Shown here piece by piece: positions 9,331 through 62,453 of a stretch of 64,000 nucleotides of DNA. Numbering within the stretch: position 1 is the first letter of the stretch; each line of letters starts with the position of its first letter. Both the position numbers and the translations under genes were made by a program. The DNA lies in the NCBI RefSeq assembly GCF_040183065.1, contig NC_091119.1, positions 63,536,392-63,600,391 of the forward strand, written 5' to 3'. Source of the stretch: Periplaneta americana. Its lineage: Eukaryota; Arthropoda; Insecta; Blattodea; Blattidae. The notes under the pieces are model-generated. The model worked only from the letters and a program-made list of their open reading frames with translations, searched no databases and was not told where the DNA came from.

Positions 9331-9550
9331 CTACACATATTGAATCTGTGCTTTTTCTTCTATTGTCATTTGATGCTGTTAATATTAGTGAGGAATCTCA
9401 TAGAATCTATTGGAGTTGTTTTGATTCCACCAGTAATGAGTATAAGAGCTTGGTTTTAAACATATTCTATTTCGTTTATGAAAGGTGAAGTAAGTAAAAT
9501 TTCTCCGCAGTATGTCAGCACTGGCTGTACAAACATTTTGTATGTAGTGT

Positions 9551-9592
9551 CATCGCCGGCTGCTATATACATATATATAGCAGCCGGCGATG
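9551..9592. repeat. inserted hairpin H0 (42 bp, 19-bp arms)
   Basis: A perfect palindrome: arm CATCGCCGGCTGCTATATA, a 4-base loop 'cata', and the exact reverse complement. It is flanked on both sides by GTAGTGT (9544-9550 and 9593-9599). The related LINE at 53400-53500 reads straight across this point with one copy of that 7-mer, so the palindrome plus a target duplication was added to the LINE. Confidence 0.85.
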
Positions 9593-9833
9593 GTAGTGTT
9601 CAAAGTAATTCTAGAGCATCCCCATTTCTTTCCTGCTAGTCTTTTTAGAAGGGAGAATCTTTTACGAGCTTTTTCGGAATTAAAGCAGAAAATCAATATC
9701 CCGAATTTAAAAGAAAACTTACAAATTAAACCAAACCCTTTATTAACTCTATTAAATATAGAATATAATCTAAATTTAACAGAAGAAATACGGAAATCAG
9801 AAGTAAACACTGAAATACTGAGACAATTGTCTT

Positions 9834-10812
9834 ACTTACTTACTTATTAGCTTTTAAGGAACCCGGAGGTTCATTGCCACCCTCACATAAGCCCACCATT
9901 GATCCCTATCCTGAGCAAGATTAATCCAGTCTCTACCATCATATCCCACCTCCCTCAAATCCATTTTAATATTACAGTATCTTCCCACCTACGTCTCGGC
10001 CTCCCCAAAGGTCTTTTTCCCTCCGGCCACCCAACAGACACTCTATATGCATTTCTGGATTCGCCGATACATGCTACATGCTACATGGATTTTATGTTCC
10101 TAATTATGTCAGGTGAAGAATGCAATGCGTGCAGTTCTGCGCTGTGTAACTTTCTCCATTCTCCTGCAACTTCATCCCTCTTAGCCCCAAATATTTTCCT
10201 AAGAACCTTATTCTCAAACACCCTTAATCTCTGTTCCTCTCTCAAAGTGAGAGTCCAAGTTTCACAACCATACAGAACAATCGGTAATATAACTGTTTTA
10301 TAAATTCTAACTTTCAGATTTTTTGACAGCAGACTAGATGACAAAAGCTTCTCAACAGAATAATAATACGCATTTCCCATATTTATTCTGTGTTCAATTT
10401 CTTCCTGAGTGTCATTTATATTTGTTACTGTTGCTCCAAGATATTTGAATTTTTCCACCTCTTCGAAGGATAAATCTCTAATTTTTATATTTCCATTTCG
10501 TACAATATTCTGGTCACGAGACATAATCACATACTTAGTCTTTTGGGATTTACTTCCAACCCTATCGCTTTACTTACTTTAAGTAGAATTTCCGTGTTTT
10601 CCCTAATCGTTTGTGGATTTTCTCCTAACATATTCATGTCATCCGCATAGACAAGAAGCTGATGTATCCCGTTCAATTCCAAACCCTTTGTGTTATCCTG
10701 AACTTTCCTAATGGCATATTCTAGAGCAAAGTTAAAAAGTAGAGGTGACAATGCATCTCCTTGCTTTAGCCCGCAGTGAATTGGGAAAGCATCAGATAGA
10801 AACTGGCCTATA
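9834..10812 (-). mobile_element. RTE-like LINE, 5'-truncated, nested in another LINE
   Basis: The minus strand encodes the end of reverse transcriptase: [20 protein letters not shown], the catalytic LLVYADDMN, then FKYLGATVTNINDTQEEIEH and VLYGCETWTLTLREEQRLRV, and finally KMDLREVGYDGRDWINLAQD. Its 3' end carries an (AAGT)n tail, seen as 'acttacttactta' at 9833-9846. The insertion is bounded by an exact 11-bp direct repeat ACAATTGTCTT (9823-9833 and 10813-10823). The host LINE resumes directly afterwards ([14 protein letters not shown]), which shows the order of events. Confidence 0.9.
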
Positions 10813-11585
10813 ACAATTGTCTTTAGAGACAATTAATATTAGGTACCCTCCACAAAACTGGCTTCATTTATACATTGACGGATCGTTGATCTCCAGAGAA
10901 CAAGGTGCCGGTGCAGGTGTTACGTGCTGTCTCTCCTCACTTTATAGATCTCTTGGATATGGAACAACAAGTTTTGATAGTGAAATCATTGCAATAAGTG
11001 AAAGTCTCAGGAATCTTCTATGACACATCAATAAATTTAAGAATGCAGCTATATTGTCAGACTCCAAAACAGCTATTCTATCAATAGTCTCTAAATACAC
11101 ACCTTCATCTCAAACAGCAGAAATAACTAAAATGCTCTTTCAATTAATATCACTCAATAAAAGAATTGTATTCCAATGGATACCATCCCATTGTGGAATC
11201 CTGGGAAACGAGAAAGCGGATGCTTTAACAAAGAAGGGCAGCACTGCTACTTACAGACCTGTTACTAAATCTACGTATTACTCTGTGAAAAGATTTATTA
11301 AATCTACATACTTAGACTTCAACAAACAAAATTTGATAACACAATCTCAAGGGAAAAAATGGAACTCTCTGCGTCAAAATCCACACCTGCATAGAATTGA
11401 AATATATCAGTCTCCTAACTGCCCATTGTGCAACTCAAACCAAGAAATGGATTCGGAACACCTCAAAATCTGTGCTTCAGTGGCTGGCCATGATAATATC
11501 TTTGAAAAATATTGGAGTGCAAGAGGGCAAATGACTTTATTGTCAAACGCCTGGCATTAGAAAACAATAACAATTGGCTACACAT

Positions 11586-12008
11586 TTTAATTAATTAAAG
11601 TTGCAATACAATTGATTTTATGCGTTTTGTATGTTTTGACTAATTATATTGGGCCTAAACTTTTAATTTTTGTTAGAATTATTGTTAAAAAATTTAAAAA
11701 ATCCTATTACAGTCTGATGTGTACAGAAAAATGCATGAAAATATTTAAATCCTACAATAATAAATCAATTTACAAAGAGAGTAAAGAATAAAGATAATGT
11801 ATAATATCTAATACATACTATATTATCATCGTTTCTATATCAATACAACCCAATAGGAGGTGAAAGACAGCATTGACGATGACAATGACCCCATCGGGAC
11901 TGAAATGTTCAGAACTAATCTAACCCTCTAATTCTGTTTTATTTGTATTTCTAGTTACTATTGGTGTTTTTAATTCTGTGTTTGACTTTGCATTTGTTTG
12001 TTTTACAG
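11586..12008. other. intron, nothing recognised
   Basis: AT-rich intronic sequence between the LINE and kinesin exon 4. Confidence 0.5.
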
Positions 12009-12070
12009 AAGTGGCAAGAAAGGAAGTGGACGTGATCTCTGTGCCTAACAAGGACCAGATCGTGGTGCAT
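12009..12070 (+). pseudogene. Klp10A: kinesin-13 exon 4, truncated by LINE sequence
   Basis: After the acceptor 'gttttacag' it reads EVARKEVDVISVPNKDQIVV then His, as expected for the motor domain. The protein family then continues EPK.KVDLTKYLEN and FDYAFD; none of this follows. From about 12071 the sequence runs into HS-stop, and the opposite strand reads as LINE protein. No GT donor is present at the break. The remaining 35 or so residues of this region were not found before exon 5, so part of the exon appears lost or displaced. Confidence 0.85.
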
Positions 12071-12251
12071 CATTCTTAGTATAATCGCCAAGGATATTAA
12101 TATAACACTTTGGCCTTTCCCACATCCATGGTGGAGTTTCATTAACAACTAAATTTTGTTCTATCGTTAAACAAGTTACATTTAAAGGAATATCTTCCAT
12201 TTGTATATTATAAAACTTGCTGAAGTTCTGATCCGTTATTTGAAAAAACAT
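12068..12251 (-). mobile_element. LINE fragment (pre-RNase H region), antisense, abutting a kinesin exon
   Basis: The minus strand reads FFQITDQNFSKFYNIQMEDI and continues to NETPPWMWERPKCYINILGD. The 'PPWxxxxP' step followed by a charged linker is characteristic of the connection between reverse transcriptase and RNase H in I-like LINEs. It runs without a gap into the reverse complement of kinesin exon 4. No tail or target duplication is visible. Confidence 0.6.
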
Positions 12252-12396
12252 ACATCATCTTGACAAAGACTGAAACATACGGTGAATTTTAAGAATTATT
12301 TTTATTGATATATAAGAACTACTTATAGCGACCATCCCTACATTATTATTGTTAAAGATATAGAAAGTTACCTTCTGTGTTATGCATTTTCAGCGA

Positions 12397-13186
12397 CAAA
12401 TCGCAAGGATGTGTAATTGTATTGTTAAAAAAAGGAAACGATAGTGCAGTGGCATATTGTGAGACCTTCGAATGCATACAAAAGGTCATTAAATGAAAAC
12501 ATTATGGACTGCTCACAAGAGGAGTAGTGCTCCTGCATTATGATGCTTGAGGTTGAGCAGTTGTGACAGTTGCAACTCGGACTCTTTTGTTAGATAGTCC
12601 TCGATCTTCCACAATAGAGCCAAGATCTGGAACATTGTGATTTCCACCTCTTTCCAGCCTGAAAGAATCGCTTTGTGGTCACATTAAAGAAATGAGCAAA
12701 AAATAACTAATATAAATTGATATGCGAATGGAAGACCTACAAGAAAATGAGATGTAAGACAGTAGCTGAAAAGTGATTCTTGGTGTCATGGGGATTGTGA
12801 GAATAGTATTAAATGTTGAAAATATTTCTATACTTGAAATAATGGTCAGGTTTGTTCTAGAATAAATGCCAACTAGTGAATACATCATTAGCCAAATTGT
12901 AATGAGTATGGAAACATTAATACTGCATTATCAGAGGATAAATTCATGACAAGATACTTCGAAATTATCTGTATAGTAAACGAGTTAACGAATTTCAGGC
13001 TCATATCGTGATTGAATTGTGAAGGTTATATGTTTTTCAGTTATGTGTTTAGTAACGAGACATGGGTTCACAATTACACTGAGAGGCAAAATGTGTAAGC
13101 ATGGAGCGGAAACATCTCGGATTTCTGCGAACATATATTCAAGGTTATGAAATTGCAGGAAAAGCGATGGTCACTGTGTTTTGTGT
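12397..13186 (+). mobile_element. mariner fragments in swapped order
   Basis: Block B (12397-12682) and block A (13051-13186) appear identical by eye to 15677-15962 and 15541-15676. There they are contiguous in the order A-B and encode a mariner transposase (A: the DETWV-like region; B: the GLLTRGVVLLH and C-terminal region). Here B comes first, then 368 bp of unrelated sequence, then A. The near-identity points to a recent rearrangement or an assembly artefact. Confidence 0.8.
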
Positions 13187-13277
13187 TAGATTTATTTTTA
13201 TTCTATCTATCTTCGTAGTGTATCCAGCTATTTTCTGACAACACGTGTTCCACTATGTTTCCAGGTCTTATTTTGTC

Positions 13278-14043
13278 ATATAAATGTATAGCCGGTACCG
13301 CATTGTTATCAAGATACGGCAATATTGCGTTATTTCAAAAACAAGTCTATCAGTTACCTGTGGCTAAAATCAGTGTTGTTTTGTGGTTAAAAAGAGATGT
13401 ATTCATAGTTGGCCATGTCTAGTAGTTATGGTGATGTTTTCTTGAATCATAATGTTGAGTGTTGTAACTGAGATTAGTGTTAGTTTTACTTTACTGAATT
13501 ACATAACATAGCAGTTGACACTACTTCAGAATGGAGGAACCATACAAACAGTGAAATGATCGATATGATGTTGATTTATGGTGAAGTAAGAAACAATTCT
13601 GCTGCTGCTCGCATCTACGCTGAACGTTTTCCTGCACAACGAGACCCAACTCCAAAAACATTTGTAGCAGTGGAACTTTGCCATAGGGAAACCGGTCGCT
13701 TTGCACCTTTGATGAACAGTGCTGGTAGATTGCGAGCGAAGTTCCAGAAATGCTGCTGCTGACCATAAATCAAGATCATATCCGTCATTTCACTGTTTAT
13801 GTATAGTTCCCCCATTCTGTATTAGTGCCAACTCTGTTATGTTAAGCAATCCAAAAGAACACTAATCTCAGTTACAATACTCAACATCATGAATCAAGAA
13901 AACACCACCATAACTAAAAGATATGGCCAACTAACCACAAAACAACACTGATTTTAGCCATGGGTAATGGTTAAACTAGCTTTTGAAATAACGCAATATT
14001 GCCATATCTTGATAACAATGCAGTATCGGCTATACGTTTATAT
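13278..14043. mobile_element. foldback element with about 300-bp inverted repeats
   Basis: The left arm starts ATATAAATGTATAGCCGGTA at 13278; the right arm ends with the matching reverse complement at 14043. The arms pair, with some differences, over about 300 bp. Each arm includes the beginning of a transposase-like ORF: (NSEMIDMMLIYGEVRNNSAA) on the plus strand and (NSEMTDMILIYGQ) on the minus strand. The centre (13585-13755) continues with ARIYAERFPAQRDPTPKTF, an N-terminal helix-turn-helix (DUF4817-like) domain of a Tc/IS630-type insect transposon. Such an element can fold into one long hairpin. No target duplication was placed. Confidence 0.75.
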
Positions 14044-14088
14044 TTGTTTTGGTGTATAGAATACTCTGCAATATTTTATAGTACATAA

Positions 14089-14720
<632 letters not shown>

Positions 14721-14726
14721 AACAGC

Positions 14727-15275: not shown

Positions 15276-15420
15276 TTCTGAATTTGATGTATATTTTACT
15301 TCAATTCAATTTATTTTGTTCTGTAAAATATCTGTGAACACCAGTGTGTTAAAAATTTTCAGTAGCATATACTTCATATACTCATACTGCGATACTGATA
15401 AATGTGTAATGAACCATTAG

Positions 15421-16070
15421 TGTGTGGCCATGAGGTGCTTGCAATTCAAAACTGGGTAAAAGCTGAAAGAATGACTTCTATTCCCTCATTCCTCCAACAG
15501 TATGAGATTCATGGCCATGACTTTGACGTGAATTGTCTCTAGTAACGAGACATGGGTTCACAATTACACTGAGAGGCAAAATGTGTAAGCATGGAGCGGA
15601 AACATCTCGGATTTCTGCGAACATATATTCAAGGTTATGAAATTGCAGGAAAAGCGATGGTCACTGTGTTTTGTGTCAAATCGCAAGGATGTGTAATTGT
15701 ATTGTTAAAAAAAGGAAACGATAGTGCAGTGGCATATTGTGAGACCTTCGAATGCATACAAAAGGTCATTAAATGAAAACATTATGGACTGCTCACAAGA
15801 GGAGTAGTGCTCCTGCATTATGATGCTTGAGGTTGAGCAGTTGTGACAGTTGCAACTCGGACTCTTTTGTTAGATAGTCCTCGATCTTCCACAATAGAGC
15901 CAAGATCTGGAACATTGTGATTTCCACCTCTTTCCAGCCTGAAAGAATCGCTTTGTGGTCACAGGTTTTCCACTGTCACAAAGTGGTTGGCAACACAGAC
16001 ATTGTATTTTACAAGGCAGGAATTGATAAACTCGTTCCATAAAGTGCTGCAATCTTGGCAGGATTTATAT
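15421..16070 (+). mobile_element. mariner transposase remnant (collinear copy)
   Basis: Across several frames the plus strand follows a mariner transposase: FLQQYEIHGHDFD, a DETWVH-like step at 15545, GKAMVTVFC, then VIVLLKKGNDSAVAYCE, GLLTRGVVLLHYDA around the second catalytic Asp, and FYKAGIDKLVP near the C-terminus (15998-16031). Stops and frame changes are frequent. The part 15541-15962 is duplicated in swapped order at 12397-13186. Confidence 0.8.
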
Positions 16071-16232
16071 TTTTAAAAAGTACTGCTCTCTCTTTTGTAT
16101 CAAATATAAATTCCATGTTTCAGAAATTCATCTTGTAAACTCCCCCCCAACCATCATACAAATGAATATGATATCCAACAGGCTTAGAAACAAATCATAC
16201 ATTTAAATGTTCTTTTTAATGAAAGTGTGAAC

Positions 16233-18895: not shown

Positions 18896-19890
<995 letters not shown>

Positions 19891-24128: not shown

Positions 24129-25594
24129 CAGGGGCGGCTTTCGAAGGGGGGCTGTGGAGCTGCAGCACCCCCAGACATTTGTGGCTCTTGTCTCGGTTTA
24201 TGCTGTGAAATACATTTATTATACAGTCTCTATTTAGCGGCTCGAATTTTTTTATAAAATTTCGCTCTCATTGACATGCACGCAATCGTTAGTGAAGTCA
24301 CTTCCTCCCCTGGTGTTGCAAGAGCGAAACCAGAGACAAGGACTATAGGATGAAGCCACTTCCTCCCCTGGAGCTGCCAGTCTCGTCTCGGATGCTTTGC
24401 GCGTTAGTTTTACCCCTCCCCCTGCTGCCCCTTGCCGCGAATCCAGAGTTTCCAGGCGCTGCAAAATTTGCAGCAGTTTGTCAGTAGCGCGCAGTTTTAA
24501 ATACATTTTCTTTAATGTTGTGAGTATAACAAGTGCAACAATGTTTAATTCTGTACAATATTTACAGTCTATTCAGTTCAGTACCTTAACAATTTAGGAG
24601 AAATGTGAAATTAAGTGCCCATCAGTTGAATCTCATAATGGAAAGAGCCGCTAAACAAAATACAAAGGCTCGCATATTTTTTGCTAATTTATCCAGTATC
24701 CCTGGTTTCTTCTCTCGATCTCCTTACAGTGTGTATTAGATTAATGTGTTTCAAAGACAATTCCATCAGCTGGGGCAACAAGATGGAGTTTAAAATAAGA
24801 ACAGTAAATGTTGTTCATGAGAAGAAGGAGCCATTGCTAGAATGTTTTCAAATCATAATGGAGTCTGAAACATCTAACATCACAATAAATGAGGCAAGCA
24901 CGGAACAGTACACAGTTGAGCAGCGAGATCTGTGAAAATGAAAACCCTAAAAAGCGTCGTAAGGTCGAAGAGATTCAGACAAGGGTTGCAGCAGCCAAAG
25001 AAGTGTGTAGCCTCATTATCACACAAGCTAACACCCGATTCCAGATCATAGATCATCCGATATTATCTTCTCTTCTGTGTCAAGAAAAATTGGAATGCTA
25101 TAAGAGCTCATTTCCTGAAAATGACCTAAATGTATGTGTGAAGCTTTTTCCAATGTTCGATAAAGACAAACTAAAAACGGAACTCACTATGTTGTATCAG
25201 AGACAAGAATTCAGAAATATCAGTGACGCAGTCAAGCTCTTGCAGTTTCTTCTATCTGAGAACTTGCAGGTCTCATTTTCAGAAGTTGTGAAACTACTAC
25301 GCATAGCTATCACCATACCAATGACAACTTCCGAACCAGAACGTTGCTTTTCATGTTTGAAGAGAGTCAAATCCTACCTTAGAAATACGATGAGAGAAGA
25401 GAGACTGACCGCATTAGCTATGTTTTCCATTGTAAAGACTATGTTAAACGACATACCGGATTTTAATAAGAAGATGATTCAAAAGTCTGCAACCTACAAG
25501 ACAAGGCGCATGGAACTAATCTTTAAATAAAATAAGTTGCTTGGTTACTTTTTGTATGCAGCCCCCTTAATTCAATACCCACGACCCGCCACTG
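24129..25594 (+). mobile_element. hAT transposon (ZMYM1-like), internally deleted, with 8-bp target duplication
   Basis: Exact direct repeats TATTTAGG lie at 24121-24128 and 25595-25602. The ends are imperfect inverted repeats: CAGGGGCGGCTTTCGAAGGG on the left, and CAGTGGCGGGTCGTGGGTAT on the right when reverse-complemented. It keeps the C-terminal part of the transposase on the plus strand. Related left-end sequence occurs at 61275. Confidence 0.9.
24889..25530 (+). CDS. hAT transposase C-terminal half (dimerisation domain)
   Basis: A 213-codon open frame reads AAAKEVCSLIITQANTRFQI, then FPMFDKDKLKTELTMLYQRQ, and ends with the hAT dimerisation region: LLRIAITIPMTTSEPERCFS followed by LKRVKSYLRNTMREERLTAL. 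A preceding open piece (24780-24935) resembles the segment just upstream of it. The catalytic N-terminal two thirds are absent, so it cannot act alone. It is intact over this stretch and lies inside a kinesin intron on the same strand. Confidence 0.85.
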   Translation: MRQARNSTQLSSEICENENPKKRRKVEEIQTRVAAAKEVCSLIITQANTRFQIIDHPILSSLLCQEKLECYKSSFPENDLNVCVKLFPMFDKDKLKTELTMLYQRQEFRNISDAVKLLQFLLSENLQVSFSEVVKLLRIAITIPMTTSEPERCFSCLKRVKSYLRNTMREERLTALAMFSIVKTMLNDIPDFNKKMIQKSATYKTRRMELIFK

Positions 25595-32894: not shown

Positions 32895-33300
32895 AGACAT
32901 ATACCTTCGACAGACTGCCCGTTTCAACGCTATGTCACGTCATTCTTCAGTGTCTCTTGAACCACTGGTGATCTTGACTCTGCGATGTGCAGTTGTCGAT
33001 GGTAGGGGTGGGGGTGTGTTGTTCCTATGGTGGGGGCTGGCTGTTTGTGTGTTATGATCAAGAGGAGTAGAATATTTCTACTCCTCTTGGTTATGATGTA
33101 TTGTGACGTCGAATAATGTGTGTGTATTGAACTGCAATTGTGTGTTAAGTATATATTGTGGGTATGCTATTGTATTCTTATATATTTCGTACTGTTCTAG
33201 GATGTTTAATTGTGAACTTTTTGGTGTGATGTGTAAAATTTCCATATCTGTTTCTATATTATTGTAGTCATGATTATTGTTGATAATGTGGTCTGCCAAC
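32895..33300 (-). mobile_element. Penelope-like element, 3' fragment
   Basis: The minus strand reads ADHIINNNHDYNNIETDMEI then LHITPKSSQLNILEQYEIYK, a pattern I associate with the C-terminal part of Penelope-like retroelement proteins. It is followed by non-coding 3' sequence with the phrase 'agactgcccgtttcaacgc' at 32911-32929. It is a fragment and is interrupted by the hairpin at 33059-33089. Confidence 0.55.
33059..33089. repeat. inserted hairpin H1 (31 bp, 14-bp arms)
   Basis: Arm CAAGAGGAGTAGAA, loop 'tat', exact reverse complement. Flanked by GTTATGAT on both sides (33051-33058 and 33090-33097). Shares CAAGAGGAGT with hairpin H2 at 61864-61891. Confidence 0.88.
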
Positions 33301-41995: not shown

Positions 41996-42969
41996 GTTGG
42001 CAACGCTGGTACGTACCTATGTATGCAATCACTGCCATCGTGATCTAATACAGGCCGTAAGGCAGACCACGTGACTCGCTTAACAGCTGATCGCGAAAGG
42101 CGGTCTTTCAACCATATGAATTAGTTGCAGTGCATGAAGAATAACATATATTTCTCTGAAATGCAGTGTAATTGCATCAGTAAAATTTTAAACTGTGATT
42201 GTGAGACACTTGAGACACAATTTACTTGCAATTTAAGGTATAATATTATTTTTGGTGTGAAAATTACGTTGTTGCAGGCAAAGTTCGTATGTGTAATACC
42301 TGCATTTATTTCGATTAAATATTGCGCCCTAATATGGTTAAGTGAAATTTTGGTCTTATAAACAGTAGGCTAAATATGTGTAATAATATATACGTGAAAG
42401 TGAAACATTGACTGGCATGTAAAGTAAGTTGTGATTGGGCCTAAGTGCAGCGTTACCGATGTTACTCTTGTCTAATCCATTATTGCTAGTTTACCGTATT
42501 TGTCTTATTAAATTTAAATTATTGCGCCCTTTTTATTTGTGAATAACCTACATTATACGAGTAAATAATACGACGTTTGATAATATACACAATTTGAACT
42601 AAAAACGAGATACATATAGTTAGTATATTACGAAAAATTATACCCTATAGTTTTCATTACTGTTACAGTATCTAGAATTGTAATTAGTTGAAATAAAGCA
42701 CTCATGCTTCATTACGAAATTCTTGCACATTCATTTATGCACGTTTCAACAATTTTCAGTTGCATCGCACGCTTATTTTAATGTGTTGAAGTTATAGGTT
42801 ATGTTTATTCTATCAGTACTTGCCTTATTTCCATATTCGCAATTATGCATTATAATTAAGCATAACGCTACGTATAACTCATAAATGCAATTTGTCTACA
42901 CTTCAATTGTATTTATTCGTTTCAGACGGTACTCCAGTCTGAAGTCTGATTAGTTTAATATGTTACTAG

Positions 42970-43146
42970 GGCTAAACTAGCGCTGAGGTAGTTCCCTTCG
43001 TATTCATACATCTTGCATATACAAATTAGTTCGGTTCGTTCAGGATTTTAATATGCCTTGCTTATAGGATCAAACGCATCTCGACAAAAAATAAATTCAA
43101 CTGTTTTCAGTTCAGAAATTACCGGAACTATACCTCAGCGCTACTA
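42970..43146. mobile_element. short MITE with GCTGAGGTAG ends
   Basis: The left end is CTAGCGCTGAGGTAGTTCCC. The right end reads, reverse-complemented, TAGCGCTGAGGTATAGTTCC. About 175 bp; the interior contains 'tcagaaattaccgg'. Confidence 0.7.
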
Positions 43147-43151
43147 AGTAA

Positions 43152-43800
43152 TATAACATATGTACATTTCATAGGAGGGACTGTGGTGAATTTTCTACCT
43201 ATAAGTAAGGACGGTAACCGTGTTCTGAAGTTTATCCTAAAAATATATTCTTCTTTATTAAATCTCAAAACCGTTATCGTTCTCAACTTAAGCCTAAAAT
43301 GTTGACGCAGATAGGTTATGTTAACATGGTAAATTCTCTTCACATAAAAATAACAGTTTTATTTATTATTCCTGCCACATTATGCAACACATAAATGGCA
43401 CTTATGCACATATTACATTGAATAAAAATTTAATTGTATTATTTATTTGTTCCCTCCTATACTGAGTTGTAATGAATTGTATTTATCTAACCTACCAGAT
43501 TAACACACAACTGTACATACACTAATTTCATAGGAGGGACTGTGGTAAATTTTGTACCTACAAGTAAGGAAGGTAGATGTGCTAAATTAAAATCACAATA
43601 TAAATAATTCTTCTTTATTAAATCTCAAAATAGCTTCCATTCCGAACTTAAAATGTTGATGCAACCAGGTTATGTTACCATGTAAAACTCCGCTCACATT
43701 AAAATAACACAGTTTTGTAATTATTTCTGCAACATATTATGCAATAAGAAGTGTGAAGGGGTCTTATACACACATTACACTAAATAAAATTGAGCGCTGA
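43152..43800 (+). repeat. tandem direct duplication, about 360-bp period
   Basis: The phrase 'atttcataggagggactgtg' occurs at 43165 and 43525, and later phrases ('ttcttctttattaaatctca', 'ggttatgtta') follow in the same order at the same spacing. The copies have clearly diverged. Confidence 0.8.
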
Positions 43801-44149
43801 CGCGCATTAAAGAAATATATTTCACTCAGCTCCGTATACTCAAATAGAAAAGCCCGACTCATCGAGTGACGTCACACAACCTGCATTACGGCCTGGTCTA
43901 GATCACGATGGCAGTGATGCAATCCTAGATCAAGGATGCAATTGACGGTGTAGTGTACGAAGCCGACACTAGAGTGGCATAAAAAGCGCAATTATATTAA
44001 TTGTCTATGAATATATTTACGCAATGAACGTCTGTCACTTTAACCGAACCAAGAAGTGATACACACTTTCCATAATTTAGTCTACATTTTTATGAAATTC
44101 ACCAGTTCCTAAAACTGTATAGTTTGTATTTAAAATTTGGAAGTGATGT

Positions 44150-44780
44150 GTGAAGAAAAATCTGGAGATTTTCAACTACAGTTTAGCGGTTTTTTAAGCT
44201 TGTGCAGCGGTAAATGGAATTCTGAGTTGGCAACACTACAGCAAACTCGTAAAGCGAAGTTTTGATTTGCTGCAGCGACGGTGAAGCAAATGCAAAGAGT
44301 TTGTAATATATAAGGAAGTATTACAAACTCTTTGAGCAAATGTAACCGTGCGTTTTTTTTAAAGCGCTTCATACCTTTGCTGCAGCAAATGAGGGTCGAA
44401 AAAAAACGTAAGTAGGTCAAATGACTGCAAAATGGTGGACAATTAATATTGGCTTCTATTTCTGCCGTAATACATTTAACCCTAAAAGAACCAAACATGT
44501 TAAATAATTTCGACTTCCATGGTAATGACATGGAATTATTATTACTAGACGATTTTGACAATAATAAACGTTGCAAAAGACCAAAACACATTCCGCCATG
44601 ATGGATCGTGCAGCAAACTCGTAAAGGGAAGTTTTGATTTGCTGCACGCTTGCTACAGCGCTGCTGCAGCGACGGTGAAGCAAATGTAATAAAAGAACGG
44701 TTTTGCTGCAATGCTTTACGTCTTGCTAAAAAAAAAAAAAAGCACGGTATAGGAGTAATGGAAGAAACGCCAAGATCATC
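44150..44780 (+). mobile_element. probable Harbinger-type remnant with internal duplication
   Basis: The segment 'cagcaaactcgtaaag(c/g)ga' followed by 'agttttgatttgctgca' occurs at 44239 and 44611, each leading to 'cagcgacggtgaagcaaatg'. Between them a plus-strand frame reads GNDMELLLLDDFDNNKRCKR then PKHIPP, which faintly resembles the acidic start of Harbinger transposases. The assignment is weak. Confidence 0.4.
44293..44334. repeat. inserted hairpin H3 (42 bp, 16-bp arms)
   Basis: Arm CAAAGAGTTTGTAATA, 10-base loop 'tataaggaag', exact reverse complement. Flanked by AGCAAATG at 44285-44292 and 44335-44342. The paralogous copy of this segment at 44671-44690 has the sequence 'gacggtgaagcaaatgtaa' with a single AGCAAATG and no hairpin, which is a natural empty site. 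Confidence 0.92.
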
Positions 44781-53291: not shown

Positions 53292-54778
53292 TCTAAATCA
53301 ACTACATGAATCCAATACAATGGCCAACACCTTCCTAGGACTTATGAATCCAAATATCTTGGAGTTATTTTCGATAGTAAGTTAACATGGAGCAACCATT
53401 TGAAATACACTTGTGAAAAAGCTCGTAAAAGATTCTCCCTTCTAAAAAGACTAGCAGGAAAGAAATGGGGATGCTCTAGGAATACTTTGAACACTACATA
53501 CAAAATGTTTATACAGCCAGTGCTGACATACTGCGGAGAAATTTTAATTACTTCACCTTTCATAAACGACATAGAATATGTTCAAAACCAAGCTCTCAGA
53601 CTCATTACTGGTGGAATCAAAACAACTCCAATAGATTCTATGAGATTCCTCACTAATATTAACAGCATCAAAATGACAATAGAAGAAAAAGCACTGATTC
53701 AATATGAAAAACTTATCAGATTACCAGGAAACAATTGGCATTCATACCGTCCTCTCTGTAGATTGAAAACGCAAAAAAGTTTCATATCCATTGTTCAAGA
53801 ATTAAAACAGAAAATCAATATCCCGAATTTAAAAGAAAACTTACAAATTAAACCAAACCCTTTAACTCTATTAAATATAGAACATAATCTAAATTTAACA
53901 GAAGAAATACTGAAATCAGAAGTAAACACTGAAATACTGAAACAGTTGTCTTTAGAGACAATTAATATTAGGTATCCTCCACAAAACTGGCTTCACTTAT
54001 ACACCGACGGATCCTTGATCTCCAGAGAACAAGGTGCCAGTGCAGGTGTTACGTGCTGTCTCTTCTCACTTTATAGATCTCATGGATATGGAACAACAAG
54101 TTTTGATGGTGAAATCATTGCAATAAGTGAAAGTCTCAGGAATCTTCTATGCCACATCAATAAATTTAGGAATGCAGTTATATTTTCAGACTCCAAAGCA
54201 GCTATTCTATCAATAGTCTCTAAACACACACCTTCATCTCAAACAGCAGAAATAACTAAAATGCTCTCTCAATTAATATCACTCAATAAAAGTATTGTAT
54301 TCCAATGGATACCATCCCATTGTGGAATCCTGGGAAATGAGAATGCGGATGCTTTAGCAAAGAAGGGCAGCACTGCTACTTACAGACCTGTTACTAAATC
54401 TACGTATTACTCTGTGAAAAGATTAATTAAATCTACATACTTAGACTTCAACAAACAAAATTTGATAACACAATCCCAAGGGAAAAAATGGAACTCTCTG
54501 CATCATAATCCATAGTTAATTCCCGATTTACCACGAAAATCGTCTGTAGCTGCATTTAGATTGGCAACAGGCCATGATTGTTTGGCCAAACACCTGCATA
54601 GAATTGGAATATATCAGTCCCCTAACTGCCCATTGTGCAACTCAAACCAAGAAATGGATTCGGAACACCTCAAAATCTGTGCTTCAGTGGCTGGTCATGA
54701 TAATATCTTTGAAAAATATTGGAGTGCAAGAGGTCAAATGACTTTATTGTCAAACGCTTGGCATTAGAAAACAACACC
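53292..54778 (+). mobile_element. I-like LINE, 5'-truncated, with 15-bp target duplication
   Basis: Exact duplications AACACTAAATTAAGC lie at 53277-53291 and 54779-54793. It encodes the reverse transcriptase thumb (YLGVIFDSKLTWSNHLKYTC) and RNase H (LHLYTDGSLISREQGASAGV; ILSIVSKHTPSSQTAEITKM; WIPSHCGILGNENADALAKK), then the CPLC zinc knuckle and SNAWH-stop with an AAC-type tail. One in-frame TAG near 54513 interrupts it. It shares long near-identical stretches with 9339-11577. It lies in Rae1 intron 2, sense to the gene. Confidence 0.93.
53400..54515 (+). CDS. LINE ORF2 C-terminal part (RT thumb and RNase H)
   Basis: A 371-codon open frame. RNase H catalytic acidic residues are visible in LYTDGS (Asp), the FDGEIIAISESL helix (Glu), FSDSKAAILS (Asp) and NENADALAK (Asp). 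A stop after HHNP cuts the frame; the last 68 codons (54561-54767) continue in the same frame after it and hold the zinc knuckle. The element is 5'-truncated, so no protein of known function is expected. Confidence 0.85.
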   Translation: MKYTCEKARKRFSLLKRLAGKKWGCSRNTLNTTYKMFIQPVLTYCGEILITSPFINDIEYVQNQALRLITGGIKTTPIDSMRFLTNINSIKMTIEEKALIQYEKLIRLPGNNWHSYRPLCRLKTQKSFISIVQELKQKINIPNLKENLQIKPNPLTLLNIEHNLNLTEEILKSEVNTEILKQLSLETINIRYPPQNWLHLYTDGSLISREQGASAGVTCCLFSLYRSHGYGTTSFDGEIIAISESLRNLLCHINKFRNAVIFSDSKAAILSIVSKHTPSSQTAEITKMLSQLISLNKSIVFQWIPSHCGILGNENADALAKKGSTATYRPVTKSTYYSVKRLIKSTYLDFNKQNLITQSQGKKWNSLHHNP

Positions 54779-54822
54779 AACACTAAATTAAGCATAGATA
54801 CTATTAATCTGATCTCTTGCAG

Positions 54823-55677: not shown

Positions 55678-55722
<45 letters not shown>
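55676..55722. repeat. (AT)n microsatellite
   Basis: About 22 AT units after 'tatatgc'. Confidence 0.95.
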
Positions 55723-55724
<2 letters not shown>

Positions 55725-57795
55725 TATATTTCCCCATGGATTTGTTTGTATTGGCCAGCTTATTGCAGACAGATTCTTTTTTTACGTTTTCTTTGTGCTG
55801 TCATAGAAGTAAAGAAGTGAATCTGGATGGGTCAGCTTGAGAAAATAACTGTATTGATAGTTTATTTTCTTCTGTATCTTTATAGAACGGACATTTGTCA
55901 GTTGAGTGAGACATGTGATGATGTGGAAAAATGTGTGTTCATTAGTGAGACAGTTCAAAGAAGGCCGAATGTTATGTGATAGTGGACCGAAAGAGCTCAG
56001 TCACGCACCAGTTGGACCAACAACAAAATTGCATAGTGAAGCAAATGCAGCCGTCACATCCATGACAGCATGTTTCACTCAACTGACAGTGAATGTTGAT
56101 GGGTGTCATGCCACATAAGTGGAGAAACCAGTCACTTGAGTTCTGTGCCCTGTATGGTGCAGCTATCTGTCACACATTCACAAAGAGTGCCCACGCCTTT
56201 TAAGTTCAGTCGTATGTTTCTATCTGCTCCCAGTCCTGAGAAAAAAAATTAGGAAACCTTAGAACTTAATCCTTATGAGATTTTAAGCTTTCACAAAGAT
56301 TGTGTGTAGAAACAGACTTTTAGGTATTCCACTGTATGCTGGAACTTAACATTCCCAATGGTCCATCTTCATGGCAAATTAGTAGGAGCCTAGTAAGTAC
56401 CATACTCAGTTGTTGGAACAGCAAGGCATAATGGGACCCAACAGAGTATTTGATCAGCCAAGTCGTACTAATTTACTTTGTATTTACCTTCAACACGTTG
56501 GAGATGTTAAGTGGCAGAACACAATGCCAAAAGTCTGCTGCTGAATATTTAATCTATGCTATGATCACACTGCTCCTAGTAATAATATTATATAATGAAT
56601 GCAACCCAAATCACACAAGTGAAGTGGGTAGGCATTAGATATACACATACACAGATATAATGAATGCACTCTAAATATGTAATACGAATATGTTAATATA
56701 GACACCAATGATGCAGTTCTTGCTAGCTCTACTGTGGTTGGACGTTCAGAATATGTTGAGTTCAGTATTGGTGGTTTAAGTGTAAAGAATCCTGGAAGAA
56801 AATGACTTACAATTCTGAATCAATTTGCCATTGATGTGAACAAATCAGTTAATGCCAGTGGTACAACAGCATTATTTCCATCATGTCTTGGACTCTAAAT
56901 ACACCTGTAGCATACTTTTTTCATGTGTATCTTCATTGGTATTAAGAATATCAACTCTTCAATAGTGCAGACAGAGGGAACTTCAATTTCTCCTTTATTT
57001 TTCTGAATTTCCTACTTTTTATTAACTTTATCCACAACTGTCTATTCTACAAGTTCTTAATAAGAAATGGTTGTGCAAGAGTAGTTTTTTTATTTTAGAC
57101 TAAAAGTAACTTTAACTACCCTTTCTTAGAAACAAAAATAGGTGATTAGGTTTACTCCTAAAACCCAATAGTGAAAGAGAAGGCTTTATGGCTTAACTCT
57201 GCCAGTAGAAATAAATCTATTAAATAAAATAAATTCGTATCATATCAGAAATGGTGTTTAAATTTAATTGCCCTGAAGGTAGACTTGGTAGATTTAATGC
57301 AAATAGAGATTGTAAATTGATTTTAATGTTATTCACAACAAGAAAATGAATTGACAGTGTTGAATAATGAAGACACTAACACTGTTATGCCACTATCAGA
57401 CCTATAATCATGTCGCTGTTATTTCTGGCATGACTCCTCCTCTTTGCTTACGCCTTAGGAAGTGAAGGCTCTATAAAGTCTAGGTAGGTAGTATCGTTCT
57501 CCATTTTTGTTCTTTTGTTGTTGAGCTATCAGACGAGGAATCTATTTGCCACACTGTTAAATATTATCATGTCGTAGCTCCTATGATAATAAATCAAACG
57601 CACTGTAATTGAGCAAATAATTGAGTGGCAAATAATATCCTTGTGTGCTTTCTGCAGACACTAACGAAAGAGCCAAAATGGTGGGCGATTACATTAAGTA
57701 TTAGCGAGCCTTAGGAAGTGCATAACGTCATCAGCAGCAAATGACAAGATGCATATGTTTAATGTAGCTGACCTGCAACGTGATTGGCTGCCGGA
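55725..57795. other. Rae1 intron 3, largely unrecognised
   Basis: An open stretch at 55906-56118 contains SLVRQFKEGRMLCDSGPKEL, which could be a decayed mariner-type helix-turn-helix, but the match is too short to claim. The rest is AT-rich with no feature. Confidence 0.35.
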
Positions 57796-57965
57796 AATAA
57801 GAGCGACAGGACTATAGGTTCAAATCCTGGTTGGGACAAGTTCTTCCGGGATTCTTCCTCAGGCATTCAAAGGTAACTTTTAGGCTATTGATCCTCAGAT
57901 TTAATTCGCCATTATTTTCACTCTCAGATCAGCAGATACAATGGGAACTATTGTTAAGCTTTCTT
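57796..57965 (+). mobile_element. SINE fragment
   Basis: Starts at the B box (GGTTCAAATCC at 57819-57829), followed by 'tggttgggacaagttcttcc' and a body matching the SINEs at 39846 and 60215. The tRNA head is mostly missing. Confidence 0.65.
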
Positions 57966-58037
57966 GTATGGGGTCTCCTTTAAATAACATTCAATGAAGG
58001 AATTTCTTAAACTTTTACAAAGCACTTAAAAAATTAA

Positions 58038-58265
58038 ATAATTCTGCTCATGCTATGTTTTCTGTGTTTGGGAGACAAGACAATTAAATCCATCAAACAA
58101 GTAGAAACTATTAAGTACCTTGACATTACTTTCAACGATGAAATTATACTGGATAAGAATGAAATATTGCGAAATCTGGAAACAGACTTCAGTACATTGG
58201 CAGCATTAAACTTGCTAAAATCTGATCAGAAGTTAAATATTATTAATCAATATATATGGACGTGA
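58038..58265 (+). mobile_element. R2-like LINE reverse transcriptase fragment
   Basis: The frame reads KQVETIKYLDITFNDEIILD, then LETDFSTLAALNLLKSDQKL and NIINQYIW. The order 'YLG(V/I)xFxDEIxF ... L...PxQKLxIINQYxWP' is the region after the catalytic motif in R2-type LINE proteins. About 75 codons, cut at both sides. Confidence 0.5.
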
Positions 58266-58346
58266 ATTGTATAGGCCTATATGTACATTGCAGACTACAC
58301 CTTTGATAAAATTCCTGTTTCTTTTTTGCAAAACATTGATAAATTA

Positions 58347-59551
58347 CCAGGAAGTAACGACTGTTTGCCTGTAATAAATTAAAAAAAAATGTATATTTTA
58401 TTACACAAACACCTTCGTTATTTAAGCATTTGTCATATCTGTCTACGAGCTTTAGAATTTCCGTGTTGTAGTCATCTGCCGCCAGTCTTTTAAGCCAGTT
58501 AAGCATTCTTCAACTTGTCATCACTTTCAAAACGTTTCACACCCAGGAACTCATTGAACTTCGTGAAAAGATAAAAATCACTACGAGCAAGGTCTGGACT
58601 ATAGGGTGGGTGATCAAAAAGTTCCCATCTCTCACTGGTTGCAGCAGCAGTGTGAGTGCGGGCATTTTAATGAAGAAGCACAATACTGCAGGAAATCATT
58701 CCATGCCTAGAATTTTGGATTGCTCCCCGTAGTTTTCTTAGGGTGTTACAGTATCGATTTGCATTGATCATAACATCTTTTGGCAAGATTTCCACCAAGA
58801 GATCACCCTTACAATCCCAAAAAACCTTCGATATGACTTTTCTTGTTGACAGAGTTTATTTGAATTTTCGCGGTTTTTTGGGTGATGAGGAATGATGCCA
58901 CTCGAGTGATTGGTGCTTGGTCTCTGGGGTGAAGTGAGACAGCCATAACTCATCACCAGTAACAATTTGATCAAGAAAGGCATTTCCGTCTGCATGATAC
59001 CACGTCAAAAATGTCACTGCTGCAGCTATTCTTTGTTTTGTGTTGATCATTCAGTTGCCGGGGAACCATCATGCAGAAATTTTCCTATATCCAAGATGTT
59101 CGAACACAGTTTCACCAAGCAAAGAACGAGAAATGTTTGGGAAAGAAATGTGTAACTCGTCTATGGTTACGCATCTGTTTCGCACAGTTTTGTTGTTCAC
59201 TTGATCCTGCAAAAATCATTTATGGTGAGTGACTGACGTCCAGATCGAGTTTCGTCAGCACATTTATTCATCCATTGTTGAACATTGCACACCACTTTCT
59301 CATATTTCTTTCATTCATTACTGTATCACCATACACTTCTTTTAGTTGGATGTAAATTTGTGCAGGTTTCAAGTTCTTAGCATTCAAAAATCGAATAACA
59401 CCTATCACCTCACAGACTTAGTATCACATAATTTATTTTGAACAATCATAGAATGCACAATAACAACTTGTTTTGACTGGCACTCCCACAACACTGAGAC
59501 AAGGTGTCGAGGAAAACATTCGGAAATGCGCAAATGGTTTTTACTTCCTGG
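58347..59551 (-). mobile_element. mariner element, nearly full length, decayed
   Basis: The inverted ends are CCAGGAAGTAACGACTGTTT (58347) and, reverse-complemented on the right, CCAGGAAGTAAAAACCATTT. On the minus strand the transposase runs in order: VIRFLNAKNLKPAQIYIQL- and KEVYGD-like start, MRKWCAMFNNG, VTHFFPKHFSF, WYHADGNAFLDQIVTGDELW (first catalytic Asp), HFTPETKHQSLEWHHSSSPK, HPPYSPDLA near the third Asp, and LVDRYDKCLNNEG at the end. Many stops and frame changes. The length (1.2 kb) is that of a complete mariner. Confidence 0.88.
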
Positions 59552-60214
59552 ATTACCCTTGTAATAAGATAAACTATTCAGAGGAGAATGAGGACTGCCT
59601 GATGAGTGTCCCAATGAAATGTAGTATGCTTTTAAAAAATATTCGAGGATTAGGATATTTCGAGCAGAATGGGAATCAAATATTCAACACTTCAACATTG
59701 TACAGCATTTGTCGTGTATAGAAGACATTCATAGGATAAACACAGAAATATTGACATTACCCTACATCATATATACCCAGATTGCTCCGCATTATAGGTT
59801 TTGATGTTAACAACTTTTGTCAGGTTTACTATGCTGCCATCTAGTTGTTACATAAGGAGTCACGTCATAATTTTCATTTGAATTGCATTAGCGACTGTAC
59901 TGCCATCTTGTGTTCGTTTACGGCGGACGGGTGGCGATCCTGGTGGTTGTTCTCTTCAAAGTGCAAAGGATTTTAACAAAGGAACGAGCAATCTATATGT
60001 GATCTGGAACATTACCAAGCGATTGACAAATTAGCTGAAATGAAAGTCACAAACATTTTTCTTAATATTGAATAAAATTTTGGTGCACATTTCGTAGTTT
60101 TTGCGATATAGAGGTCATATTTCTTACAATGATTCAAATTTCGCATTATTTTGCAAGTTTGTTTTGCTTAAATATGATATTTTAGGTGTCTATATGGTAC
60201 CAAAGAAAGTAGCC
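59552..60214. other. Rae1 intron 3, nothing recognised
   Basis: No feature recognised. Confidence 0.45.
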
Positions 60215-60478
60215 ATTGGCATAGCTCAGGTGGTAGTGCATTTGCCTGCTGATCCAGAGTTGGACTCGGGTGCGGGTTCGATTCGTGCTTGGGCTGATTA
60301 CCTGGTTAGTTTTTTTCCGAGATTTTCCCCAACCATAAGGCGAATGTCAGATAATTTATGGCGAATTCTCTTCCTCATCTCACCAGATACCATCTCGCTA
60401 TCACCAATTCCATCGATGCTAAATAACAAAGCATTTGATACAGTGTCGTTAAATAACCAAGCAAAAGAAAAATACAAA
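60215..60478 (+). mobile_element. tRNA-derived SINE
   Basis: Head GGCATAGCTCAGGTGGTAGT (a good A box) and B box GGTTCGATTCG, then 'gattacctggttagttttt', body 'ctcatctcaccagatacca', and end 'agtgtcgttaaataaccaag' plus A-rich. Imperfect flanks 'taccaaagaaagta' and 'tacaaagaaaata' may be the target duplication. Confidence 0.85.
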
Positions 60479-60839
60479 GAAAATAATTCAGGAAAATTTC
60501 GCACGTATCATTATTACCAAAAAACATGTTCCCTAACCATGCACAGTCAAAAACACACACAGATATAAAAACGAGCTGCATCTGTGACAAAATCTGTGGT
60601 CGTGATAATAGACATTGTTAATCATAAATTCAGTCTAAACTATTAATATTTTGTGAAGAGAAGTCGGTTTTCAGGACTGTTTACTGCTGGCATGATTATT
60701 GCAGAACTCATGTTCTGGAATTCAGAATGTTCACTTAATAATGATCAACTGATCAGTTTTTTATAAACGAAGTTCAGTTTTATGGGTTAATAGAGAAGTC
60801 TAAACTGATGAGCTCTGTCGATTTTCGTGCTTGTTTTAG

Positions 60840-60911
60840 TTCTGGGACACGCGAAGTCCAAACCCGATGCTGACAATCAATCTTCCAGAACGAGCCTACT
60901 GCGCTGATGTT
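60840..60911 (+). CDS. Rae1: Rae1 exon 4
   Basis: The acceptor 'gcttgttttag' ends at 60839 and the donor GTAAGT starts at 60912. 24 codons, phase 0: [20 protein letters not shown] then CADV. This continues blade 3 (DKTLK-FWDTRS.NPM) and matches the known protein closely. The remaining half of the protein (about 190 residues, blades 4-7) must lie downstream of the window. Confidence 0.97.
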
Positions 60912-61274
60912 GTAAGTATCGCTCATATACATTGTGCACAGCTTTTCACATACTACTTATACCATGCAGTGTTTTATAGCATGCACTCAGCAGAAACTCT
61001 AAGGAACATTTCTTCAGTAATTATGTATGTCACTTTGATTTAATAGTTTGTCAGTTCAGATAACTCTAAAGGCCTGCTCCCACTTAGCAGAATCAAATCA
61101 AATATAATTTCTCTTTACAATGTATCTGAATGAAAGATAGCAGAAAGCAAATCAAACAGAATTCAGGAGCTAGAATATTTATTCCACTGCCGGAACAGAA
61201 TTTCTTGTTTCGGGTATGTTTGTAAGTTCTCGTGAAGCTTTCGTGAAAAAACAAATGAATCATATCCACCAGTG

Positions 61275-61420
61275 GTGGCTTCTCAAGGGGGTTGCAGGAT
61301 TGTACACCCCCCAGTAATGTTCCTAATCTCCTGGCTTTGTTAATATTAAAAATATAATTTTATTTTACAATTTTCATTCATGACTATCTGCAGCTGGCAT
61401 CTTATTTTGTACGTCTGCAG
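61275..61420. mobile_element. hAT (ZMYM1-like) left-end segment
   Basis: CAGTGGTGGCTTCTCAAGGG followed by a 'ttgcagg...caccccccag' stretch resembles the left end of the hAT at 24129. No right end was found, so its extent is uncertain. Confidence 0.5.
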
Positions 61421-61863
61421 GAGCCTCCAAACCTCTTGGTTTGCAAAGATGTTGAAAACCTAGTGATGGTAGTTTATAGGGATGTTCAGCTAATGCGGGG
61501 ATGGGGATTAGAGGCGTGGTCTATGGTTTCCTCGTTGAGAACAGTTTGTCGCACTCTCTGACATGGACACCAGCGTCAGTGCAGAAGAAACTAAATTCAC
61601 TGGGAAAGTATCTGTTTCAACTAGACATTTGTCCGAAGTAATAAGCATGAAAAATGTATTCATTCGGCTTGTGCAACGAACAGTCGCATATTTCGCATAT
61701 TACTTTCTCAATCTACATGCACACAAATGGCACAATACATAAAGGAGCTTGTATTTTGCTCCAAAGTTCTAAGAGTTGTCGTTCTGACAATAAGTGCTGC
61801 TTTCTCACAACAGCCTACGAAAGCTGCATTTGAATTTTATGAACGAAAACTTTGCACTTGGTA

Positions 61864-61891
61864 CAAGAGGAGTTATATTTAACTCCTCTTG
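61864..61891. repeat. inserted hairpin H2 (28 bp, 12-bp arms)
   Basis: Arm CAAGAGGAGTTA, loop 'tatt', exact reverse complement. Flanked by ACTTGGTA at 61856-61863 and 61892-61899. Lies inside the Harbinger-type element. Confidence 0.88.
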
Positions 61892-62453
61892 ACTTGGTAC
61901 TTGGTAGCATTCTGATGACGATTCTGTGCTCAAATGTTTTTCATGAGAGTAAATCGCAATATAGAGAGCTCCACCCACGACCCCTTCCACTTTTGGACTT
62001 TCTGTATAAATAGATATGCTTGTATTTAGTCATTTTACTTATTAATTGCATATAAATTAGCTTTATATGTATACGCCCTCAGGTATACACGGTTTTAAAC
62101 TTTATGTTTAACTCCTCTTCGATATCCATTGTGCACCACCATATTTTCAAACTACCAGCCGTCACTGATATCCACTCTTGGCGGCTTAATTCATTTACTA
62201 TTGAAAGTTATTGCTGAAATAATAGGCCTACATATACAAAAATCACAATTTAATATGAACGAAGAACAATTAATAAATCTTGTGTAGAATTATCCTCTTT
62301 TCTATGACAAAACACAAAAGTACTGTTCGGTTTAATTCCACTAGATGTGAGAGGCAGCAGACTTTTCGTTTCTATTCGATTCTGCTAAGTGAGAGCGAGC
62401 CTTAAGACACCTATCACATTAATTCCGACGAAACTGTTTTTTATGATTGTGAA

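Follow-up and report, generated by a model that had tools for sequence, protein, structure and literature searches.

Four hairpins in a cockroach gene as very probable excision footprints of P-superfamily DNA transposons

The scar that a P element leaves upon excision is a kind of sequence already known. In Drosophila, the P{wa} repair junctions listed in Table 1 of PMC2895639 display, after P excision, an anatomy like that of the cockroach scars described here. A stagger of 17 nt is given for the P element of Drosophila melanogaster in the cited part of PMC7776569. In the assays covered by the sections of PMC10983969 cited here, the zebrafish element Pdre2 underwent excision and no integration was observed.

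We analysed a window of 64,000 nucleotides from Periplaneta americana (the whole stretch of DNA under study) and propose that its four hairpins, which lie in a cockroach gene, are excision footprints of P-superfamily DNA transposons (probability about 0.96; Table 1). They seem to record how far inside its own ends the transposase cuts. Their coordinates, arms, loops and 7–8 bp repeats, as placed by the initial annotation, were all verified: in coordinate order, the arms are perfect over 19, 14, 16 and 12 bp, the loops measure 4, 3, 10 and 4, direct repeats are flush with every hairpin, and all four begin with CA and end with TG. When the entire window was scanned (arm of at least 9, loop of at most 60, flush repeat of at least 6), the only hits were the four hairpins, one row nested in the first and an (AT)n run at 55687–55716. 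Comparison with dinucleotide-shuffled sequence, a check suggested by the initial annotation, gave one relaxed match in total in 60 shuffles of the window and 0 at arm ≥12, repeat ≥7 and loop ≤12. The four hairpins with their 7–8 bp repeats thus exceed chance. The window also contains hAT relics (Dimer_Tnp_hAT at 6276–7124 and 24889–25530), and an Rfam search returned only a tRNA.

Table 1. Positions of the hairpins, their flanking duplications and related features in the window
Feature	Position	Strand	Basis
Left 7-bp target duplication, GTAGTGT	9544..9550	.	Empty copy at 53415-53706
Probable family-2 P-type excision scar, 42 bp	9551..9592	.	TIR CATCGCCGGCTGCTATATACTCCGCC
Right 7-bp target duplication	9593..9599	.	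Direct repeat
Left 8-bp target duplication, GTTATGAT	33051..33058	.	Direct repeat
Probable family-1 P-type excision scar, 31 bp	33059..33089	.	TIR CAAGAGGAGTAGAAATAGAAGAGAGGGG
Right 8-bp target duplication	33090..33097	.	Direct repeat
Left 7-bp duplication of family-4 element, ATGCAAT	42023..42029	.	Direct repeat
Family-4 element with both ends, 1887 bp	42030..43916	.	TIR CACTGCCATCGTGATCTA
Right 7-bp duplication of family-4 element	43917..43923	.	Direct repeat
Left 8-bp target duplication, AGCAAATG	44285..44292	.	Direct repeat
Probable family-3 P-type excision scar, 42 bp	44293..44334	.	Arms match family-3 ends
Right 8-bp target duplication	44335..44342	.	Direct repeat
Second retrotransposon copy, empty counterpart of the 9551-9592 site	53415..53706	-	Alignment
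Left 8-bp target duplication, ACTTGGTA	61856..61863	.	Direct repeat
Probable family-1 P-type excision scar, 28 bp	61864..61891	.	TIR CAAGAGGAGT...
Right 8-bp target duplication	61892..61899	.	Direct repeat

The scar arms correspond to the outermost 10–21 nt of the terminal repeats (TIRs) of larger elements elsewhere in the genome. In families 1 and 2 the elements concerned contain P-superfamily transposase domains; in families 3 and 4 the correspondence is to a parent element only. Family 1 is present with both ends in two elements of 5122 bp (L029) and 5170 bp (L030), carrying a 28-bp TIR and 8-bp duplications. PF21787 scored above cut-off in both, and PF12017 above cut-off in L030 and 0.1 bit below it in L029. 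In family 2, the TIR CATCGCCGG and 7-bp duplications were found in L069, L071 and the 648-bp L070, and L071 carries THAP, RNase H and GTP-binding-insertion domains. The initial annotation had mentioned both hAT and P transposases as a source of 8-bp duplications, and it is P domains that family-1 and family-2 elements carry. Such domains are abundant in the genome, with at least 150 matches among 2964 candidates, all 150 scored being above cut-off. No P transposase profile matched the 4 ORFs scanned among the 15 listed for the family-4 element of the window, nor the 17 ORFs from five family-3 copies; P membership of families 3 and 4 is suggested by TIR form, duplications and scars. A reverse frame in L076 and L079 opens with MVKYCAANICSN, which by eye resembles a THAP start and is without Pfam support.

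The composition of the window scars was examined against these ends. The scar at 9551–9592, hosted by a retrotransposon copy, consists of 20 nt from one end, 3 nt, and 19 nt from the other end. At 33059–33089 one arm is 17 nt long and the other comprises 14 nt of the TIR CAAGAGGAGTAGAAATAGAAGAGAGGGG, or 16 of a TIR variant inferred from scars. The scar at 44293–44334 joins 21 nt of the ...ATATAA end, GG and 19 nt of the ...ACTTAC end, and that at 61864–61891 is made of 10 nt, TATATTTA and 10 nt of the TIR CAAGAGGAGT.... Duplications are retained on both sides in all four cases, and the initial annotation was right to take them as the mark of a past transposase insertion.

By extrapolation from P-element biochemistry, the transposase would cut one strand at the element tip and the other about 21–22 nt inside. 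The donor chromosome would then keep both duplications and, on each side, a single-stranded 3′ TIR tail. End joining over 1–6 shared nucleotides, or with AT-rich filler, would then yield a palindrome of some 24–66 bp from the two inverted tails. Hairpins made in this way would neither move nor multiply by themselves and would be copied along with the host repeat.

An empty counterpart of the 9551–9592 site occurs in the window itself, in a copy shorter by exactly 49 bases, which corresponds to the insert plus one 7-bp repeat. In the genome (40 scored among 987 candidates), 38 places align in one piece across this junction and are shorter by 49 (37 places) or 50 bases (one place), and one further place aligns in two pieces overlapping by 7. 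Related sequence without the insert had been reported for two hairpins: it was recovered in window and genome for this one, and the second case is unconfirmed, no empty copy of the other three sites being found within the window, where matches near 44611–44689 pass the junction by at most 3 bases.

The 56 fetched scars include several copies of a single site; the 7- or 8-bp repeat is exact in 41, has one mismatch in 10, and the remaining 5 show no clean duplication. Family 1 and family 3 have duplications of 8 bp, and family 2 has duplications of 7 bp. Both lengths occur in family 4, where, with one mismatch tolerated, 11 of 18 scars have 7 bp and 6 have 8 bp. Duplication length is therefore not strictly family-specific.

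Exact-pattern palindromes were then counted in the whole genome: 225 for family 1, 8 for family 2 and 310 for family 3. The TIR of the intact family-4 element in the window predicted further scars, and 18 were found genome-wide. Since the patterns need exact arms of 10–13 nt and a gap of 4–30, they overlook older scars as well as shorter or longer ones. The family-3 count is inflated, one 30-mer accounting for 16 of 49 distinct sites among the matches listed, with flanks common to all four copies fetched; copied sites also occur in family 4 (L081 with L087; L085 with L098). The genome-wide scan proposed by the initial annotation, run in part, thus gave arms that cluster in families, counts far above those of reversed patterns, and empty sites for one hairpin in four.

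Twenty 10-kb stretches at chosen round coordinates (197.5 kb; arm ≥8, repeat ≥7, low-complexity matches removed) yielded one weak candidate, and 10 shuffles of each yielded none, so that the window appears unusually rich. Over C1, C2 and C3:1-74.6 Mb, at least 95 scars from the four families were listed, and among these the four of the window form the densest 64 kb. Four scars in 64 kb were reached in 0 of 2000 uniform simulations, a post hoc figure, the window having been picked for its hairpins. We give no credence to an origin by chance, as microsatellite, through an assembly artefact or from fold-back DNA inserted at random breaks. One cluster of scan matches is indeed the (AT)n run, but the shuffles contain no match of comparable strength, the arms are common to hundreds of places where reversed-pattern controls gave 0 for each of the four families, and these arms are identical to the tips of larger elements.

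The retained length stops near a fixed edge, as a staggered cut predicts, and this edge does not match the 17 nt of D. melanogaster. No arm matches the TIR beyond 23 nt (290 arms from 145 scars). The edge lies at 21–23 nt in families 2, 3 and 4 and at 17–21 nt in family 1, where most arms stop at 17 nt or before and unambiguous lengths of 18–21 nt occur in 9 of 100, some of the 18–21 nt arms relying on a TIR variant inferred from the scars and absent from the elements seen. AT/TA microhomology at that position can explain the 17-nt class. An edge of exactly 17+17=34, as in flies, was suggested by family 1 alone and was discarded given the 21–23 nt of families 2, 3 and 4. A constant sum of 29 for duplication and stagger (8+21, 7+22) was also rejected, family-4 duplications being of 7 or 8 bp and a 22-nt arm lying beside an 8-bp duplication (L081, L087).

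This edge also bears on whether the palindromes are internal-deletion derivatives, in which excision was followed by gap repair that stopped short and left no more than the tips. P elements are known to undergo repair of this kind, family 2 includes a deletion form of 648 bp, and the process would likewise preserve the duplications and the tips on both sides and could leave two different products at one site. However, its end points should scatter widely, whereas no arm exceeds 23 nt though the pattern allowed up to 50, and inverted adjacent 17-mer pairs fall into two separate size classes, of 32–66 bp or at least 5.1 kb in family 1 (first 100 of 182 places) and of 32–55 bp or at least 648 bp in family 2 (first 100 of 105), with the edge near a fixed place. 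We consider this origin very improbable.

Junctions are consistent with excision followed by end joining. Overlaps of 1–6 nt and fillers of at most 15 nt, TA-rich in L047 and L048, match the P-excision junctions of Drosophila, and a repair process had been named as a possible maker. Family 3 has two unlike ends, and its scars combine the two: of 69 scars that retain 20 nt or more of the ACTTAC end, 47 are paired with the ATATAA end and 0 with a second ACTTAC end, and in 22 the partner arm is too short to assign. Two scars, L082 and L085, occupy the same site (29 of 30 bases identical per flank, same 7-bp duplication) and have different junctions, of 42 and 49 bp. Two junctions at one copied-repeat site are what separate excisions would leave, which supports the excision reading indirectly. 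We looked once for a repeat copy that still contains the full element at a position scarred in another copy, and found none; the single candidate (one match with 2 mismatches) had unrelated flanks and was set aside as an independent insertion.

The initial annotation had instead inferred ultra-short mobile hairpins, possibly moved by a hAT-like enzyme. Upon excision, hAT elements are not known to leave TIR nucleotides at the donor site. The 8-bp duplications seen in some families and the CA...TG ends of the scars also fit hAT elements and their MITEs, and Dimer_Tnp_hAT relics lie inside the window. Against this, the TIRs of families 1 and 2 sit in elements with P-transposase domains, and the duplications of family 2, like the majority of those in family 4, measure 7 bp. 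Unlike the P-type families, a family with a hAT-like TIR (CA...TG ends, 8-bp duplications) gave 0 scar-type palindromes in the whole genome; this control family was assigned solely by its ends and 8-bp duplications and has three both-ended copies in the 197.5-kb sample. Moreover, centres and lengths vary within an arm family and one site has two junctions, which argues against mobility of the hairpins themselves. We regard hAT-driven hairpins as extremely unlikely. The distinction from ordinary MITEs was correct: family-1 palindromes comprise 32 distinct sequences in 50 sites among the matches listed, and we did not see one internal sequence recur in unrelated places, as mobile copies of a single sequence would.

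Read as P excision footprints, a supposed new class of mobile hairpins becomes a record from which past P-element jumps can be read. The scars show which TIR families excised, suggest the probable cut offsets of their enzymes and preserve germline break-repair junctions. We somewhat favour the view that cockroach P-superfamily transposases cut 21–22 nt inside their ends, and not 17 as in Drosophila, so that the stagger is not uniform within the superfamily and the genome offers a natural archive of cut offsets and repair junctions for many P families, including repeated excisions at one copied-repeat site. If the 21–22 nt offset is true, the 17-nt stagger of Drosophila is no fixed property of the superfamily. 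In repeat annotation, such hairpins should not be filed as MITEs or miRNA precursors.

Among described P-type elements, Pdre2/THAP9 of zebrafish, in the cited sections of PMC10983969, resembles the cockroach families in its short CA-starting TIR, 8-bp duplications and P-type transposase, and differs in TIR sequence and in having remote internal repeats. Galileo, a member of the P superfamily, has mostly 7-bp and some 8-bp duplications, like families 2 and 4, and a THAP/P transposase, as in family 2, but differs from the cockroach families by its long TIRs, according to the parts of PMC4168063 cited here; the word 'footprint' is absent from the main text of that paper. In the Drosophila P footprints of PMC2895639, as in the cockroach, both 8-bp duplications are kept with CA-starting TIR tips on each side, and the palindromic joint shows AT/TA microhomology, blunt joins or templated AT-rich insertions. 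In contrast with these footprints, 7-bp duplications characterize family 2 and prevail in family 4, and arms reach 21–23 nt in three families compared with 17 nt for Drosophila P. What is new in the cockroach is a natural, genome-wide scar set drawn from four families, together with an apparent stagger of 21–22 nt against the 17 nt of Drosophila.

The four hairpins, short palindromes with flush 7-8 bp direct repeats, lie exactly at the positions given by the initial annotation, and a scan of the window showed no other palindromes with flush repeats except an (AT)n run and one row nested in the first hairpin. Their scarcity in shuffled sequence, on which the proposal of a distinct class depended, also held: 60 dinucleotide shuffles gave one relaxed match and no strict match. 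All four start with CA and end with TG. We read them as scars, i.e. excision footprints of P-superfamily transposons whose arms are pieces of the parental TIR (see table). The 12-bp arm assigned to the last hairpin was upheld for 10 nt, which are TIR; the other 2 bp are filler. The first hairpin interrupts a retrotransposon copy, and a second copy in the window is its empty counterpart, shorter by precisely 49 bases. In the genome, with 40 of 987 candidates scored, at least 38 places align across this site and lack 49 bases (37 places) or 50 (1 place); a further place aligns as two pieces with an overlap of 7. No empty copies of the other three sites were found within the window.

Scars and other features (window coordinates unless a genome stretch, L-number, is named)
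Feature	Position	Description
Family-2 scar	9551-9592	20 nt + 3 nt + 19 nt
Family-1 scar	33059-33089	one side 17 nt, other 14-16 nt
Family-3 scar	44293-44334	21 nt + GG + 19 nt
Family-1 scar	61864-61891	10 nt + TATATTTA + 10 nt
Candidate scar, additional P family	L017:6066-6092	CACAGTATTCTATCTTCTTATACTGTG; 7-bp repeat GATCGAC; CA...TG ends
287-bp exact direct repeat	12397-12683, 15677-15963	near kinesin exon; lone CAAGAGGAGT inside each copy, at 12516 and 15796
666-bp stretch	13328-13993	13-bp inverted ends CGTTATTTCAAAA; 8-bp repeat CAATATTG
tRNA-Tyr(gta)-like candidate (ARAGORN, Rfam)	33453-33524	gene or tRNA-derived SINE head; 364 bp from 33059 scar
hAT transposase relic	5753-7124	Dimer_Tnp_hAT at 6276-7124
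hAT transposase relic	24889-25530	Dimer_Tnp_hAT at 24889-25530

Genome-wide, short palindromes with the family-1 arm CAAGAGGAGT, which two of the four hairpins share, number 225, those with the family-2 arm CATCGCCGGCTGC 8 and those with the family-3 arm CAAAGAGTTTG 310; the reversed control patterns of these families each gave 0. In the 50 of 225 family-1 sites listed, scar length ranges from 24 to 43 with a mode of 34 (10/50), and 32 distinct sequences with differing centres are present. The variation is junction variety rather than copies of one element. A recurring family-3 30-mer is, judging from the flanks common to all four fetched copies, a single scar copied within another repeat.

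Parent elements were found from the same ends. The family-1 17-mer led to at least two elements (5122 and 5170 bp), each carrying a 28-bp TIR and flanked by exact 8-bp duplications; ORFs of both match the P-transposase RNase H profile, and those of one also pass the cut-off of the HTH profile. For family 2, the first 100 of 105 places of the 17-mer include 19 inverted pairs in the range 3.2-7.9 kb and a single pair at 648 bp. All three pairs read are flanked by 7-bp duplications; in one of these elements, L071, the encoded domains are THAP, RNase H and GTP-binding insertion. The two ends of family-3 elements differ (...AATACTTAC vs ...AATATATAA). In the 69 family-3 scars keeping at least 20 nt of the ...AATACTTAC end, the partner arm comes from the ...AATATATAA end in 47 and from the same end in none, the remaining 22 having a partner arm too short for assignment. 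No P transposase was matched among the ORFs scanned in family-3 and family-4 copies; P transposase domains are abundant in the genome (at least 150 matches scored above cut-off, 2964 candidates). Three family-3 copies (L076, L077, L078) carry a long simple internal repeat with the translation SGNSRPSS..., and a reverse-transcriptase ORF lies within L077.

The window contains a two-ended element of 1887 bp (family 4), which has a 7-bp duplication and the TIR CACTGCCATCGTGATCTA. If the scars are P-type footprints, this TIR should likewise have left some, and its pattern retrieved 18 scars genome-wide (control, 0). Another family, with TIR CAGTGGCGTAGC, was classed as hAT-like from its ends and 8-bp duplications, not from a transposase; a 197.5-kb sample contains three two-ended copies of it, two with exact flush duplications. 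A pattern search of the genome for short palindromes from this TIR gave 0.

Exact 8-bp duplications flank 14/18 family-1 and 10/13 family-3 cases, four of the latter being one copied site; family 2 has exact 7-bp duplications in 4/7, and family 4 has 7 bp in 9/18 and 8 bp in 4/18. A weak palindromic preference, RTTNNAAY, is visible in the 8-bp duplications when 30 distinct family-1 and family-3 sites are pooled, two-ended elements among them. The 7-bp duplication GTAGTGT is common to two family-2 scars at unrelated sites (L049 and window 9544-9599), hinting at a target preference.

Two family-4 scars (L082 and L085) sit in copies of the same repeat, with each flank identical at 29/30 bases and the duplication GTACATA in common, and are themselves unlike (42 bp vs 49 bp). 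Most simply, both repeat copies carried the element and lost it in separate excisions, although two insertions that independently hit one base, or a single scar rearranged later, could also account for the difference. In L087, L096 and L098, further family-4 or family-3 end arms directly adjoin scars, implying repeated hits at some sites.

The region holds an exon of a kinesin-13 gene whose best solved relative is Klp10A. Where the listing is complete, scars of the four families average 0.18 per Mb, vs four in the 64-kb window, a post hoc contrast since the window was selected after the fact. P elements of the fly prefer promoters and origins and also hop locally (PMC7776569); we suggest that the kinesin gene, if expressed, might be such a target, which could account for the local richness in scars.

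Arms were compared with parental ends in 145 scars (family 1, 50/225; family 2, 8/8; family 3, the 69 scars described; family 4, 18/18), the edges being computed after removal of bases attributable to the partner arm and one family-1 TIR variant being deduced from scars. In none of the 145 does the match extend past 23 nt. The family-3 edge lies at 21 nt, with 27/138 arms ending there, 3/138 at 22 nt and 0 further; that of families 2 and 4 lies at 22-23 nt, 22 nt being reached by 2/16 arms in family 2 and 2/36 in family 4, and 23 nt by 1/36 in family 4. Most family-1 arms stop by 17 nt, with 9/100 at 18-21 nt. A 42-bp family-3 scar, for example, is 21+21 with one base ambiguous, and a 46-bp family-2 scar is 22+GC+22.

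D. melanogaster P transposase cuts one strand at the element tip and the other 17 nt inside (PMC7776569); because of this staggered cut, the donor site retains both duplications and two TIR tails. In the post-excision Drosophila junctions tabulated in PMC2895639 (Table 1), two TIR pieces lie between the duplications and meet in an AT or TA overlap or at an AT-rich insert. Cockroach scars share the anatomy of these tabulated junctions, including overlaps (1-6 nt) and fillers (L047 and L048 among others). Where the initial annotation proposed, as one possibility, mobile ultra-short palindromes moved by a hAT-like enzyme, this anatomy points, by inference, to a P-type enzyme as their maker. Among the matches listed, from which subscription papers are mostly absent, titles and abstract openings describe neither a natural genome-wide P-footprint set nor cockroach P elements. 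P footprints are a kind of scar already known; compared with the 17 nt of D. melanogaster P, the apparent cockroach offset is longer, 21-22 nt, which would make the cockroach scars a variant of the known P footprint.
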